From assembly GCA_002162075.1 (NCBI GenBank), contig CP021423.1:2914001-2978000 (forward strand): 64,000 bases of DNA, read 5' to 3'. This DNA is from Armatimonadetes bacterium Uphvl-Ar1 (GTDB lineage: Bacteria; Armatimonadota; Fimbriimonadia; Fimbriimonadales; Fimbriimonadaceae). The translations under genes and the position numbers were made by a program. The notes beneath the pieces are model-generated. The model searched no databases, had not been told where the DNA came from, and saw nothing but the letters and a program-made list of their open reading frames with translations. Shown one piece after another: positions 3,089 to 9,005 of this stretch. Within the stretch, counting starts at the first letter, position 1. The number at the start of each line of letters is the position of its first letter.

Positions 3089-3969
3089 ATGGCAGGTCAG
3101 GACATTCGGAAAACAGGGTTTGTCCTGACCTGTTTGGTTCCAGGATTGACGCTTTATCTGTGGCTCGTCGTAGTGCCGTTCATAAAGACTCTTGAATTGA
3201 GTGGCTATCGGTTTTCTGGTGTATCGACAAAGCGGACTTGGGTGGGGTTTGAGAATTTTGCGGAGCTTGGTAACCGGGAAGAATTTTGGTGGGCGGTTCG
3301 GAATAGCTTTACAATTTTGTTGGTCGTGGCTCCGATCCTGCTTTTGATGGCGATGGGGCTTGCGCATTTGGCTCAAGGGGATTCCAAGGGGGCAAAATTG
3401 ATGCGGACGATTTATTTGTTTCCTAATTTAATTTCTCTGGTGGCGGCGGCGTTGATTTGGCGAGCGGCATACAATCCGAGTGTTGGGCTCCTGCGCGGAA
3501 TTGGGCTCACGGGGCCAGAGAATGGATGGTTGGGGGATGTCGGAACGGCTTTTGGCGCGTTTGCGGTTGCGTTTGTGTGGGTGAGTTTGGGGTTTTATAC
3601 GATGCTTTACTGTGCGGGGTTGGCGGGGATTCCGGGCGAGGTTCACGAGGCTTGCGAACTGGAGGGCGCAAAGGGATGGCGTAAGTACTGGTTGGTGACG
3701 AGGCCGTTGATGTGGCCAGTTCGCCGGGTGGCATCGGTCCATGTGACGATTGCATCGCTTGGAGTTTTTGCGTTGGTCAACGTGATGACCGAGGGGGCAC
3801 CCAGTAACCGCACTGAGACGATGCTCCATTCCTTGTATCGGATGATGACGATGGGGGTGAATTTGGCAAGGCAGCGGCGATGGGGGTTGTGATGATGGTG
3901 GTCACGGCTTTGGCAAGTATTGCTTTGTGGGGTGTATTTCGTCGTAATCCGGTGGAGGGTCAGCGATGA
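3089..3969 (+). CDS. Sugar ABC transporter permease 1 (MalF/UgpA type), frameshifted at 3853-3857
   Basis: Inner-membrane permease of a CUT1 sugar importer. It has about six hydrophobic segments and the EAA loop near the C-terminus (EACELEGAKGWRKYWLVTRPLM), which docks the ATPase. The frame is lost in the G5 run at 3853-3857. One extra G gives MGGEFGKAAAMGVVMM and carries the last membrane helix to a TGA at 3967-3969, making 293 residues. The corrected stop overlaps the ATG of the second permease by four bases (ATGA), which supports the corrected reading as the true gene. Without correction the last helix is lost. Confidence 0.87.
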
Positions 3970-4795: not shown

Positions 4796-6034
4796 ATGGT
4801 CGGTACGACTCCAAGTATTGAGATGATCCGGGCGCAGTTTCCGGGATTGCGGGATGATTTTGCGTTTCTTGAAAATGCCGGTGGCAGCCAAGTTCCAGGT
4901 GTGGTTATTGATGAGATTGGTCGGTTTTATCGCGAGGATTATGCTCAGAAGGGGGCGACCTATGGGATGAGTGTACGGGCGACGGAATTGCACGATCAAT
5001 GCAAGGTGTTTCTCAGTCGGATTTTTGGGGGAGAGGAAACGGGCTATGTTGCCGTTGGGCCGAGTGCGACGGCGTTGTTTAATATGTTGGCGGGGGCTTT
5101 GCGACCAACTCTGAGACCGGGAGATGAAGTTGTGATCTCAGTCGCGAATCACGAGAGTCATATCGGATGTTGGGAGCGGTTGGCGGAGTTTGGAGTGGTG
5201 ATCAAATGGTGGGGTGTTGACCCTGAGTCGGGTTTGAGCTCGCTTGATGATTTAGCGGCAATCGTCAATGAGAAAACGAAAGTGATTGCGTTTACGCAAA
5301 CTTGTAATTTGGTGGGCGATATTGTTGATGCAAAAGCGGTGGTTAAGATTGCTGAGCAGGTAGGAGCGGTGACAGTGATGGATTCAGTCGCGGCGGCGAG
5401 TCACCAGGCGTTGTTTGTTGATGAGTGGGGAGTTGATTTTTGTTGCTTCAGTTGCTACAAGGTTTATGGCCCGCACATGGCGGCAATGTGGGGGAAAAAG
5501 GAGCGATGGAGCGAGCTAACGGGGCCGAATCATAAACAGCTACTGGATAAGGGAGCTATGAAATTTGAGCTTGGCTGTTTGAGCTATGAATCGATGGCGG
5601 GGTTTTTGGCTTTGGGGCGTTACTTTGGATTCCTTGTGGGTGAGGAGGTTGGTTTTGGCGAGGTTGCGAGTCGGGCGGTGATTGAGCGGGCTTATCAAGT
5701 GATGGATGAGCGTGAGACATTTTTGGAGGAGGCGATGCTGGGGTGGTTGAATTCCCGGAGCGATTTGCGGGTTTTGGGGGTGAGGACAGCCGGTCAAGAT
5801 CGGCATCCGACGTTTAGCTTTCGGCATAATCGACTATCGAGCCAGGAGATTGAGCGTCGGGCGCATGAGCATCCGGTCGCGTTGAAATACGGGAATATGT
5901 ATGCATGGCGGATTTGCGAGGCGTGTGGCATTCCGGCGGATGATGGGGTGGTACGAGTGAGTGCAGTTCACTACAACACCGTTGAGGAAATTCAGCGTGT
6001 GTGCGGGTTGCTCGAAACGATCTTAAACGGTTGA
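4796..6034 (+). CDS. Class V aminotransferase, cysteine desulfurase-like (VC1184 subfamily)
   Basis: PLP enzyme of the cysteine desulfurase/SufS fold, 412 residues. The Schiff-base lysine is Lys222 in the CYKVYGPH motif, and the PLP-binding Asp lies in VMDSVAA (Asp196). The N-terminus (FLENAGGSQVP) matches the subfamily known as cysteine desulfurase-like protein VC1184, whose exact substrate is not settled. The family releases sulfur from cysteine or sulfinate from cysteine sulfinate. It is followed 33 bases later by a cysteine dioxygenase and then a YeiH-type exporter, so a cysteine-sulfinate desulfinase role is attractive but inferred. Start ATG at 4796 was preferred to the TTG just before it. 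Confidence 0.85.
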   Translation: MVGTTPSIEMIRAQFPGLRDDFAFLENAGGSQVPGVVIDEIGRFYREDYAQKGATYGMSVRATELHDQCKVFLSRIFGGEETGYVAVGPSATALFNMLAGALRPTLRPGDEVVISVANHESHIGCWERLAEFGVVIKWWGVDPESGLSSLDDLAAIVNEKTKVIAFTQTCNLVGDIVDAKAVVKIAEQVGAVTVMDSVAAASHQALFVDEWGVDFCCFSCYKVYGPHMAAMWGKKERWSELTGPNHKQLLDKGAMKFELGCLSYESMAGFLALGRYFGFLVGEEVGFGEVASRAVIERAYQVMDERETFLEEAMLGWLNSRSDLRVLGVRTAGQDRHPTFSFRHNRLSSQEIERRAHEHPVALKYGNMYAWRICEACGIPADDGVVRVSAVHYNTVEEIQRVCGLLETILNG

Positions 6035-6067
6035 TTTTGCTGAATCTAGTAGAATAGGGCCACGACT

Positions 6068-6640
6068 ATGGCTACAGATCGAAAAGCGAATTTGGACAAG
6101 TTCATTGCGGCTCTCGATAAGGCGGTTGATATTGAGCCTTGCGACGCGCGGTGTGACATGATCAAGCGGATTCTGGAGCAGGCTTTTACGCACAAGTTAG
6201 AGATTCTGGATGACGAGCATATGCGGCCCGCGGATGGCACTTATGCACGCCATTTGGTTCACAAGGATCCGGCGGGTCGTTATTCGGTGGTGGCGATGGT
6301 TTGGGATGTGGGGCAGGGGACAGCTTTGCATGACCATGCGGGTGAGTGGTGTGTTGAGTGCGTTTACCGAGGATTGATCCGGGTGACGTCTTTTGATTTG
6401 GTGGGTTCGCCGGAGGATGAAATCGTTCAATTCAAGGCCGAAGATTCGGTGTTGGCGGGGGTTGCGGAGGCGGGGGCTTTGATTCCGCCGTTTGAGTATC
6501 ACGTTTTGGAAAATGCGGTCAAGGATGGCCCTTCTGTGACAGTTCACGTTTATGGGCACGAGTTGACCCAATGTCATATTTTTGTTCCGGTTGATGGGGG
6601 CTATAAGCGCGAAACGCGCGAACTGGGTTACACGGCTTGA
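6068..6640 (+). CDS. Cysteine dioxygenase family protein (cupin)
   Basis: Non-haem iron cupin of the cysteine dioxygenase type I family, 190 residues, cytosolic. It would oxidise cysteine (or a related thiol) to its sulfinate. The three iron ligands known from the family are all in place: His88 and His90 in ALHDHAGEW, and His145 in EYHVLEN. Cys95 lies seven residues after His88, and Tyr162 lies in VHVYGHELTQCH. These match the Cys-Tyr cross-link pair of mammalian CDO, which many bacterial CDOs lack. A TAGAAT at 6050-6055 may give it its own promoter. The stop overlaps the next gene's TTG start (TTGA), implying translational coupling with the exporter. Confidence 0.85.
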   Translation: MATDRKANLDKFIAALDKAVDIEPCDARCDMIKRILEQAFTHKLEILDDEHMRPADGTYARHLVHKDPAGRYSVVAMVWDVGQGTALHDHAGEWCVECVYRGLIRVTSFDLVGSPEDEIVQFKAEDSVLAGVAEAGALIPPFEYHVLENAVKDGPSVTVHVYGHELTQCHIFVPVDGGYKRETRELGYTA

Positions 6641-7661
6641 ACCGATTAAAGTCAGTTGGTGAGGTTTTGCCGGGCTTGGCTTTGGTTGTGGCGATGGCTA
6701 TTGCTGCCAACTGGATTGCTGAATTGCCGTTTGTGAAGGATAGTTTGCGCTTCTCATCGTTGCTCATTGTTATATTGCTTGGAATTCTGTTGGCATCGGT
6801 TTGGAAGTTGCCCGATCTGCTGGGGGCGGGGATCAAGTTGGCTCAGAAGCCGATTTTGCGATGGGCGGTGGCGGGATTGGGTTTTCGGTTGACTCTGCAG
6901 GAGGTAGCGGCGATTGGAGTACCGGCAATTGCGGTGGTTTGTTTGGGGGTAACAGGTTCATTCTTGTTTTGCGTGTGGTTGGGGAAGATTTTGGGTCTGG
7001 GGGAGAAGTTGAGTTTGCTGTTGGCGACCGGGGGGGCGATTTGTGGGGCGAGTGCGATTGTGGCAGCCGATTCGGTTGTTGAAGCTGAAGGAAAAGATGC
7101 GGCGGTGAGTTTGGGGATTATCACTTTGTGGGGAACGGTGGGGATTTTTCTATTTCCAGCGGTGGCGAAAGCTTTGGGCTGGGGGATTTTGCTTATGGAT
7201 TGATTTGCGGGGCGACATTGCATGAGACGGCGCAGGTAGTTGCGGCGGCGAGTGGGCTCTCGCCGGAAGCGACTAATGTGGCGACAGTGGTCAAGTTGGT
7301 GCGGATTTGCACTTTGGCCCCGATGGTATTGGGGATTGGTTGGTGGATTCGGCGGTCGGCGGTCGGGAAAGCCGGGGAGGCGAAAGTCAGCTTGGTGCCT
7401 TGGTTTTTGGTGATGTTTGTGGTGTTTTCGTTGTTGGTGAGTGTCGTGAGTGACGCGGGGTTCCAGGGCTTTGTCAAGGATGCGGTGAACCCGTTTGTCA
7501 AGTTGCTTTTGGCAGTGGGGATGGCAGGGGTTGGATTGCAGACCAACGTTCGCGATTTATGGAAAGCAGGGTGGAAGGCTTTGGGGCTTGGGCTGGCGCA
7601 GTGGCTTGTCTTGATCGGGATCACTTTGCTCGCGATGTTGGCCCTTGGAATGTTTGCTTAA
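6637..7661 (+). CDS. YeiH/UPF0324 family putative sulfur-anion exporter, frameshifted at 7181-7185
   Basis: Polytopic membrane protein of the Cons_hypoth698 family, often annotated as a putative sulfate exporter. The frame breaks in a G5 run at 7181-7185. One added G joins ALGWG to DFAYGLICGATLHETAQVVAAA, giving 341 residues with about ten hydrophobic segments. Family motifs include LGFRLTLQEV and ATGGAICGASAI before the break and GATLHETAQVVAA, SPEATNVATVVKL after it. The TTG start overlaps the TGA of the cysteine dioxygenase gene, so it is probably coupled to it. Context suggests export of sulfite or sulfate from cysteine breakdown; transport activity of the family is weakly established. 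Confidence 0.85.
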
Positions 7662-7724: not shown

Positions 7725-9005
7725 ATGGCTCAAGGTGATTCGCTCGTTGGGGGTTCGGTCGGTGAGGCGGTCACAGCTCGTCAAATGTTGGAGCTCATCC
7801 ACGATTTGGGTCAATGTGATGACGCACGTCAGATTTTGGTAGCGGCCTTGCGGCACTATCGGTACTTGTTTGGTGATTACAAGGGATTATGTTTACTGCT
7901 CAATGATCCGAAAACGGGGCATTGGCGAAGTGTTGCGTTTGAAAATCCTTATGGATTGAGCTGGGGCGGGGTGAAGGTTGGACAGCTCCCGGAGAGAACA
8001 GATCTTGAACAATTGGCATCATTTTTGGGTCAGGCAGCACCTTGGATTGTCACTGACACTCCGGTGCGACGTGATTTGATTGATTCTCAATCAGCATTTG
8101 TGGCCGATGGTTCGGTCTTAGCGGTTCGAATGGGGATGTTTACGGGATTGACGGCGGATGTTTATTGGGTTGCAAGTTGGAGTCGTCCCGGAGGTGGGCG
8201 GGGTTGGAGTGTGCTTGGATTTGATCGTGAAAATGTTCCGCCGGAGTCAATGTTTGGACTGTATGAGACAGCAGTTGAGACAACGAGTCGGATGTCGTTC
8301 TACCCTTCGCTCCTCCAATCAGTTGCTCAGGCAGAGCGGGTGAATCATAGTTTGCGGCGGAACTTGGTTCATGACTTGAAAACACCAATTACGGTGATCA
8401 AGGGGTACGGCGAAACGCTGGGTATGGTACGGGAAGATGAGGAGATGTTTGACGAATTATTGGGCGGGATATTGGAGAGTTGCGACAGGCTCTTGGCGGA
8501 TGTGAAAGACATTATTGAGCCGATGGAGGGGGCCTGGACTCCGAAAAAGGAAGAGTTTGATCTGAGTTTGATGCTTCAGAAAGTAGTTTTGGCGGAACGG
8601 CACACGGAGCGATCGCGCACCCATACGATTGAGATTGAAGGGTGCGAGGAGCCGGTTATGGTGCTTGCTGATCGCCGAAAATTGATGCGGGTCGTTGAGA
8701 ATTTGTTGAGTAATGCGGTGAAGTATTCGCCGGGGGCGGGCAAAACGGTTTGGGTGAAGCTGAGGCAAGCGGGGGATCTCGTTGCCATTGAAGTGCGCGA
8801 TCAAGGATTGGGGCTCAGTAGCGAGCAAATTCAGCGGGTGTTGACGGATTGTGAGCGGGTCGTGGATGAGAGTTTGGGGATTGAGGGGAGTGGGTTCGGG
8901 TTGAATTCTTGTCAAATGGTTTTGCGTGCACACGGGGGCGAGTTGCAGGTTGAAAGCGAGGTCGGGGCGGGGTCAGTCTTTCGGGCTGTGATCAAGCGCG
9001 ATTGA
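7725..9005 (+). CDS. Soluble sensor histidine kinase with N-terminal GAF-like region (orphan)
   Basis: Cytosolic two-component sensor of 426 residues with no membrane helix. Residues 1-190 look like a GAF-type sensing domain. The dimerisation/phosphoacceptor box has His216 in LVHDLKTPITVIKGYGE. The ATPase part has an N-box (VVENLLSNAVKYSP), G1 (VRDQGLGLS) and G2 (GSGFGLNSC), so it should be catalytically competent. No response regulator lies beside it. It follows the exporter by 63 bases and is on the same strand, so it may be transcribed with the sulfur genes, but a functional link is unproven. Confidence 0.88.
   Translation: MAQGDSLVGGSVGEAVTARQMLELIHDLGQCDDARQILVAALRHYRYLFGDYKGLCLLLNDPKTGHWRSVAFENPYGLSWGGVKVGQLPERTDLEQLASFLGQAAPWIVTDTPVRRDLIDSQSAFVADGSVLAVRMGMFTGLTADVYWVASWSRPGGGRGWSVLGFDRENVPPESMFGLYETAVETTSRMSFYPSLLQSVAQAERVNHSLRRNLVHDLKTPITVIKGYGETLGMVREDEEMFDELLGGILESCDRLLADVKDIIEPMEGAWTPKKEEFDLSLMLQKVVLAERHTERSRTHTIEIEGCEEPVMVLADRRKLMRVVENLLSNAVKYSPGAGKTVWVKLRQAGDLVAIEVRDQGLGLSSEQIQRVLTDCERVVDESLGIEGSGFGLNSCQMVLRAHGGELQVESEVGAGSVFRAVIKRD

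Follow-up and report, generated by a model that had tools for sequence, protein, structure and literature searches.

A cysteine dioxygenase–YeiH gene pair in Armatimonadota and other phyla, and its putative role in cysteine disposal

In several bacterial phyla, genes for cysteine dioxygenase (CDO) lie next to genes for YeiH-family membrane proteins, and in the Armatimonadota locus described here this pair is preceded by a gene for a class V PLP enzyme. We consider it somewhat more probable than the contrary that these genes form a cysteine-disposal module, in which cysteine would be oxidised, sulfite released and the sulfite exported. CDO and YeiH are the firm core of this module, and the class V enzyme is its likely but unproven third step. 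The locus was analysed in a stretch of 64,000 nucleotides (the window) from a genome of 2.99 Mb, assembled as one contig and 98.8% complete, which belongs to the Fimbriimonadaceae within the Armatimonadota. The relevant features are the following:

Left of the ABC set, minus strand: GH20 gene (PF00728, 406 bits on the intact copy of the relative G151)
Left of 4796: sugar ABC transporter set with an NgcE-like binding protein (248 bits against a cut-off of 400)
4796-6034, plus strand: class V PLP enzyme, VC1184-like and related to FGM3 and UstD (PF00266, TIGR01976); putative cysteine-sulfinate desulfinase
6068-6640, plus strand: Arg-type CDO (PF05995 and conserved residues)
6637-7661, plus strand: YeiH/PSE-family transporter, frameshifted near 7181 (frames 6637-7203 and 7128-7661, each with half of PF03601); putative sulfite exporter
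7725-9005, right of the YeiH gene: PhoR-like sensor kinase

The class V, CDO and YeiH genes are co-directional in the ORF map, with gaps of 23 and 33 bp followed by a TTGA overlap. The tight spacing and TTGA coupling noted in the preliminary description are thus borne out, as is the presence of a GH20 gene beside the sugar importer. The gene after the sensor kinase is presumably CTP-synthase-like, judging by its sequence. An Rfam scan of the 64-kb window returned two tRNAs and nothing else, and scans for promoters and terminators gave no signal clearly exceeding that of shuffled sequence.

The YeiH gene had been described as a single reading frame. Its family assignment stands, but a single-base frameshift within a run of G residues at about position 7181 breaks the gene, so that PF03601 covers profile positions 1-168 in the first frame and 172-303 in the second (133.6 and 109 bits, cut-off 24.5). 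YeiH is intact in relatives: in G151, whose CDO is 97% identical to that of the window, it is a single ORF of 341 aa that scores 249 bits. Compared with a close relative, one-base breaks also occur near 1885, in the ABC binding-protein gene, and near 3856, in the first permease gene, and all three frameshifts fall in G-rich runs inside 6 kb. Because similar one-base breaks are also found in the two ABC genes, the pattern suggests uncorrected long-read errors rather than gene decay.

The CDO matches PF05995 with 37.6 bits (cut-off 23) and is the only match to this profile in the whole genome. An alignment was built from 34 of the 40 phylum CDOs at mapped loci (L037, L043, L044, L066, L070 and L071 were excluded). 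In it, the iron triad His88, His90 and His145 given in the preliminary description is identical in 34/34 homologues, as are Tyr59 and Arg61, and the Cys95 and Tyr162 named with the triad are kept in at least 90% of them. The position of Arg61, which we take to be the carboxylate-binding one, where an Arg would mark the use of cysteine, is occupied by Gln in three aligned mercaptopropionate-type dioxygenases. Against this assignment, solved mercaptopropionate dioxygenases score higher (54 bits) than mammalian CDO (40 bits) in a comparison with solved structures. The gene neighbourhoods add a further indication. The upstream neighbour of CDO is cystathionine beta-synthase-like in five other loci (a cluster of which two members were scanned, both just below the curated cut-off), and a Cys/Met-metabolism PLP gene lies near CDO in some loci; the adjacency of such genes in several loci ties the enzyme to cysteine. 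Among the best 80 of 289 relatives, the nearest named ones come from Fimbriimonadaceae MAGs, and the closest is that of isolate BC.035, with 97% CDO identity. A plasmid search with the CDO returned only distant matches, of about 30% identity.

A CDO of this type is present in 41 of 291 genomes of the phylum, and 40 of these loci were mapped, G141 being excluded as a contig-edge fragment. YeiH adjoins CDO in half of them (20/40), lying downstream in 17 and upstream in two, with the window as the remaining case. A scan of named genomes restricted to the best 80 of 289 CDO relatives, and hence favouring near ones, found YeiH within about 1.2 kb of CDO at 27 of the 80 loci. Twelve of these 27 are titled Eisenbacteria (7), Planctomycetota including Phycisphaerae (4) and Oligoflexia (1), and YeiH is mostly not adjacent among the remoter relatives of the same scan. 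The CDO–YeiH pair is therefore common, though not universal. The three genes presented as a unit in the preliminary description stand together less often, at 8 of the 40 phylum loci. Two genomes, G152 and G157, keep the class V and CDO genes with no adjacent YeiH, which counts against the module. The CDO of G152 (L059) lies at the same locus as that of the window and is only about 50% identical to it, whereas the genes around it reach 60-88% identity and YeiH is lacking; this CDO may have been replaced or may have evolved fast.

The phylogeny of YeiH gives the linkage further structure. The tree comprises 51 rows, namely the linked named loci other than the fragment L137 and the near-copy L158 (25 of 27), two more linked YeiHs, two at 4 kb and 22 unlinked ones. 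A single clade, supported at 100/99 and extending across phyla, holds 22 linked and two unlinked YeiHs, and the genomes of both unlinked ones (G077 and G146) carry a CDO elsewhere. Five further CDO-linked YeiHs are scattered in a distant clade, and at least six label changes are forced by starred branches. The position of these five indicates repeated gain or loss of the linkage. The two genes also go together at the level of whole genomes. In an inferred family of 85 genomes (G074-G157 and G000), CDO occurs in 18 of the 19 genomes with a close-type YeiH and in 19 of the 66 without one. The sole genome with a close-type YeiH that lacks a full CDO is G105, where the match is cut by a contig end.

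YeiH-family proteins have been connected to sulfite in Salmonella, where deletion of yeiH results in 20 times greater sulfite sensitivity, yeiH responds to sulfite and not to sulfate, and the protein is presented, on the evidence of a resistance phenotype, as the main sulfite-resistance factor (PMC12880088, consulted as an excerpt). In Bordetella pertussis, according to the section of the source available, expression of YeiH drops along with that of two CDO-family genes under putative cysteine starvation, one of the two CDO genes being listed with 7.87E-02 (PMC9976334). The family model TIGR00698, which NCBI names putative sulfate exporter, gives 179 bits for the intact G151 protein, under its cut-off of 233, and this counts against a straightforward assignment. 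No PDB sequence matched YeiH at E 0.1. The predicted structure (mean pLDDT 91) bears a weak likeness to the elevator-type symporter CitS (best Foldseek E 1.3e-4, TM 0.32), and TM values against CitS and Na/H antiporters are about 0.3-0.5.

Export is the likeliest fate of any sulfite formed in this cell, because the genome profile search found no match for NIR_SIR (sulfite reductase), Oxidored_molyb (SUOX-type oxidase) or PAPS_reduct; among 14 genomes, the controls of this search had matches in 9 to 14. Oxidation by a SoeA-like enzyme was considered and rejected, the three PF00384 (molybdopterin) proteins of the genome resembling only NasC, NuoG and QrcB, though an oxidase of some new type may still be present. 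Four TauE-family matches are alternative candidate sulfite exporters, and for this reason YeiH need not be the sole exit. One TauE-family gene lies just upstream of the NasC-like molybdopterin gene (L244 and L239; genome positions 1702702-1705019).

The class V enzyme is harder to place. Its ORF matches PF00266 with 156 bits, and by far the best NCBIfam model is TIGR01976 (VC1184), at 307 bits. This lies below the cut-off of 352, which a relative in L040 passes with 364 bits, and the VC1184 type proposed in the preliminary description is retained. Among PDB sequences, the nearest are the retro-aldol enzyme FGM3 (9x4u, 204 bits) and the decarboxylative aldolase UstD (7mkv, 126 bits), ahead of all SufS entries (reactions as given in the available portion of PMC10367076). 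The fold search with the predicted model (mean pLDDT 77) does not separate the two kinds: SufS entries, on which the model superposes with Z about 36-38.6 and rmsd 2.6-3.4 over 360-375 residues, rank with UstD, and FGM3 is absent among the matches listed. The PLP lysine K222 is invariant in the alignment and the stacking histidine is also kept, while Tyr replaces the desulfurase catalytic Cys in 47/47 rows from the phylum (46 distinct genes, since L053 equals L113). An Fe-S cysteine desulfurase was accordingly discarded as an identity, the catalytic Cys being absent from every row and a separate, true SufS with a GHHC motif being encoded elsewhere in the genome. Cysteine-sulfinate desulfination is a putative activity that fits the enzyme; the consulted part of PMC3781023 gives this reaction for SufS and CsdA of E. 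coli.

In the favoured reading, the cysteine-disposal module, three steps would follow one another. The Arg-type CDO would oxidise L-cysteine to cysteine sulfinate, for which its family is a strong indication. The class V enzyme may then remove SO2 from cysteine sulfinate and leave L-alanine, an assignment of intermediate strength, perhaps through an alanine-enamine step of the kind shared with UstD and FGM3; in genomes that lack this enzyme, the same outcome would be reached by ordinary transamination, which gives unstable sulfinylpyruvate. Finally, the YeiH-family carrier would probably export the sulfite. Surplus cysteine would thus be turned into alanine and exported sulfite in a cell seemingly unable to reduce or oxidise sulfite. 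There is no obvious branch to hypotaurine, since Pyridoxal_deC has no match in the genome. Oxidation of cysteine to sulfite followed by export, as first proposed, is consequently still the best-supported reading; the place of the class V enzyme in it is weaker than was claimed.

This weakness leads to the alternative that survives best, rather unlikely as it is: CDO and YeiH would form a real module in which sulfite arises through a general aspartate-type aminotransferase, and the class V enzyme would be a neighbour of different function, for instance an aspartate beta-decarboxylase or an aldolase of the UstD/FGM3 kind. Streptomyces is described, in the part of the source seen, as using CdoI plus AspC (PMC12763843). 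CDO has the class V gene immediately before it at 12 of the 40 phylum loci and next to it at 7 of the 80 named ones (best 80 of 289), all of them in Armatimonadota. The class V gene is also far more widespread than CDO, occurring in 68 of 291 phylum genomes against 41 and mostly unlinked, with varied neighbours at loci away from CDO. At the level of the 85-genome family, however, the two genes co-occur, class V being present in 33 of 37 genomes with CDO and in 23 of 48 without it (Fisher p 7e-5, kinship uncorrected); class V and close-type YeiH are not associated (Fisher p 0.27, kinship likewise uncorrected). Two other observations speak against a mere bystander: at least four changes of linkage label are forced on the class V tree (46 of the 47 rows), so that linkage occurs more than once, and no other recurrent functional partner appears among the neighbours scanned.

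The same alternative draws on the order of genes in genomes lacking CDO. The congeners G155 and G156 keep the class V gene without CDO, and in these two and in G103 it is followed by the PhoR-like sensor kinase (L094, L095 and L102). The adjacency of class V and kinase genes is therefore older than, or separate from, the CDO–YeiH pair. In G156 (L094) the ABC–class V–kinase order is kept with neither CDO nor YeiH, and on our reading the CDO–YeiH pair was either gained at an existing locus of this order or lost there.

A second alternative retains both CDO and the exporter and changes their purpose: sulfite would be secreted deliberately to break the disulfides of external protein, as in dermatophytes (Cdo, Ssu), and not to dispose of cysteine. 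In dermatophytes and Streptomyces, Cdo with a sulfite exporter has indeed been described as a pair that degrades keratin (PMC7181669, accessible in part). We regard this as improbable here, given that no recurrent secreted protease lies beside the pair among the neighbours scanned, and that the cystathionine beta-synthase-like or Cys/Met-metabolism PLP genes in several loci fit an internal cysteine flux. Least credible of all is a role within the sugar import system, with the genes acting on a sulfonated or cysteine-bearing sugar, as the preliminary description had suggested: the ABC genes are directly upstream in 6/6 own-genus loci having CDO, but outside the genus CDO has other neighbours, G156 has the ABC and class V genes without CDO or YeiH, and both the binding protein and GH20 suggest GlcNAc/chitin. 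The linkage to the sugar transporter is confined to the genus and probably incidental.

More ambitiously, the Cys-to-Tyr class V enzymes might be dedicated desulfinases and the CDO-linked YeiH clade dedicated sulfite exporters, so that bacteria able neither to reduce nor to oxidise sulfite would encode the entire path from cysteine to alanine and exported sulfite, with the CDO–YeiH half present in several phyla; we put this forward tentatively, as possible but doubtful. If true, it would account for the removal of cysteine sulfur by bacteria that have neither a sulfite reductase nor a sulfite oxidase. YeiH is widespread, and through a clade that adjoins CDO in several phyla the family acquires a specific physiological role that can be tested. 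In E. coli, cysteine sulfinate is a metabolic dead end, and loci with a producer, a candidate consumer and an exporter could show the purpose of desulfinase activity. In the literature searched, no description was found of the CDO–YeiH gene pair, of its YeiH clade or of its spread, and the single paper bearing both terms lists them within an expression table only. The arrangement of the pair appears to be new, while the individual parts and the concept of CDO with a sulfite exporter are known.

This concept is represented by the dermatophyte Cdo and the sulfite efflux pump Ssu (PMC7181669, citing Grumbt 2013). Both systems couple CDO to a sulfite exporter, a putative one in the present case; however, the dermatophyte one is fungal, keratin-directed and uses another exporter family, whereas the genes described here are bacterial neighbours. 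Streptomyces SCUT-3 offers a bacterial case, in which cdo1/cdo2 and the sulfite exporter gene tauE are co-induced on feathers, with TauE in place of YeiH and no gene pair described in the part of the paper available (PMC7181669). The YeiE–YeiH system of Salmonella likewise has a membrane protein of the YeiH family, there connected to resistance against sulfite, but it is induced by sulfite through YeiE, and the excerpt consulted describes no CDO neighbour (PMC12880088).

For the class V enzyme, UstD and FGM3 are the nearest solved relatives by sequence and likewise have no Cys at the aligned desulfurase position, although they are fungal biosynthetic enzymes for aldol-type reactions and not for desulfination, as far as the available text goes (PMC10367076). 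E. coli CsdA and SufS share the class V PLP fold and the proposed reaction to alanine and sulfite. Unlike the enzyme of the window, they have a catalytic Cys and, in the part of the source consulted, no known source of sulfinate (PMC3781023), whereas here a Tyr takes that position and a CDO is encoded next door.
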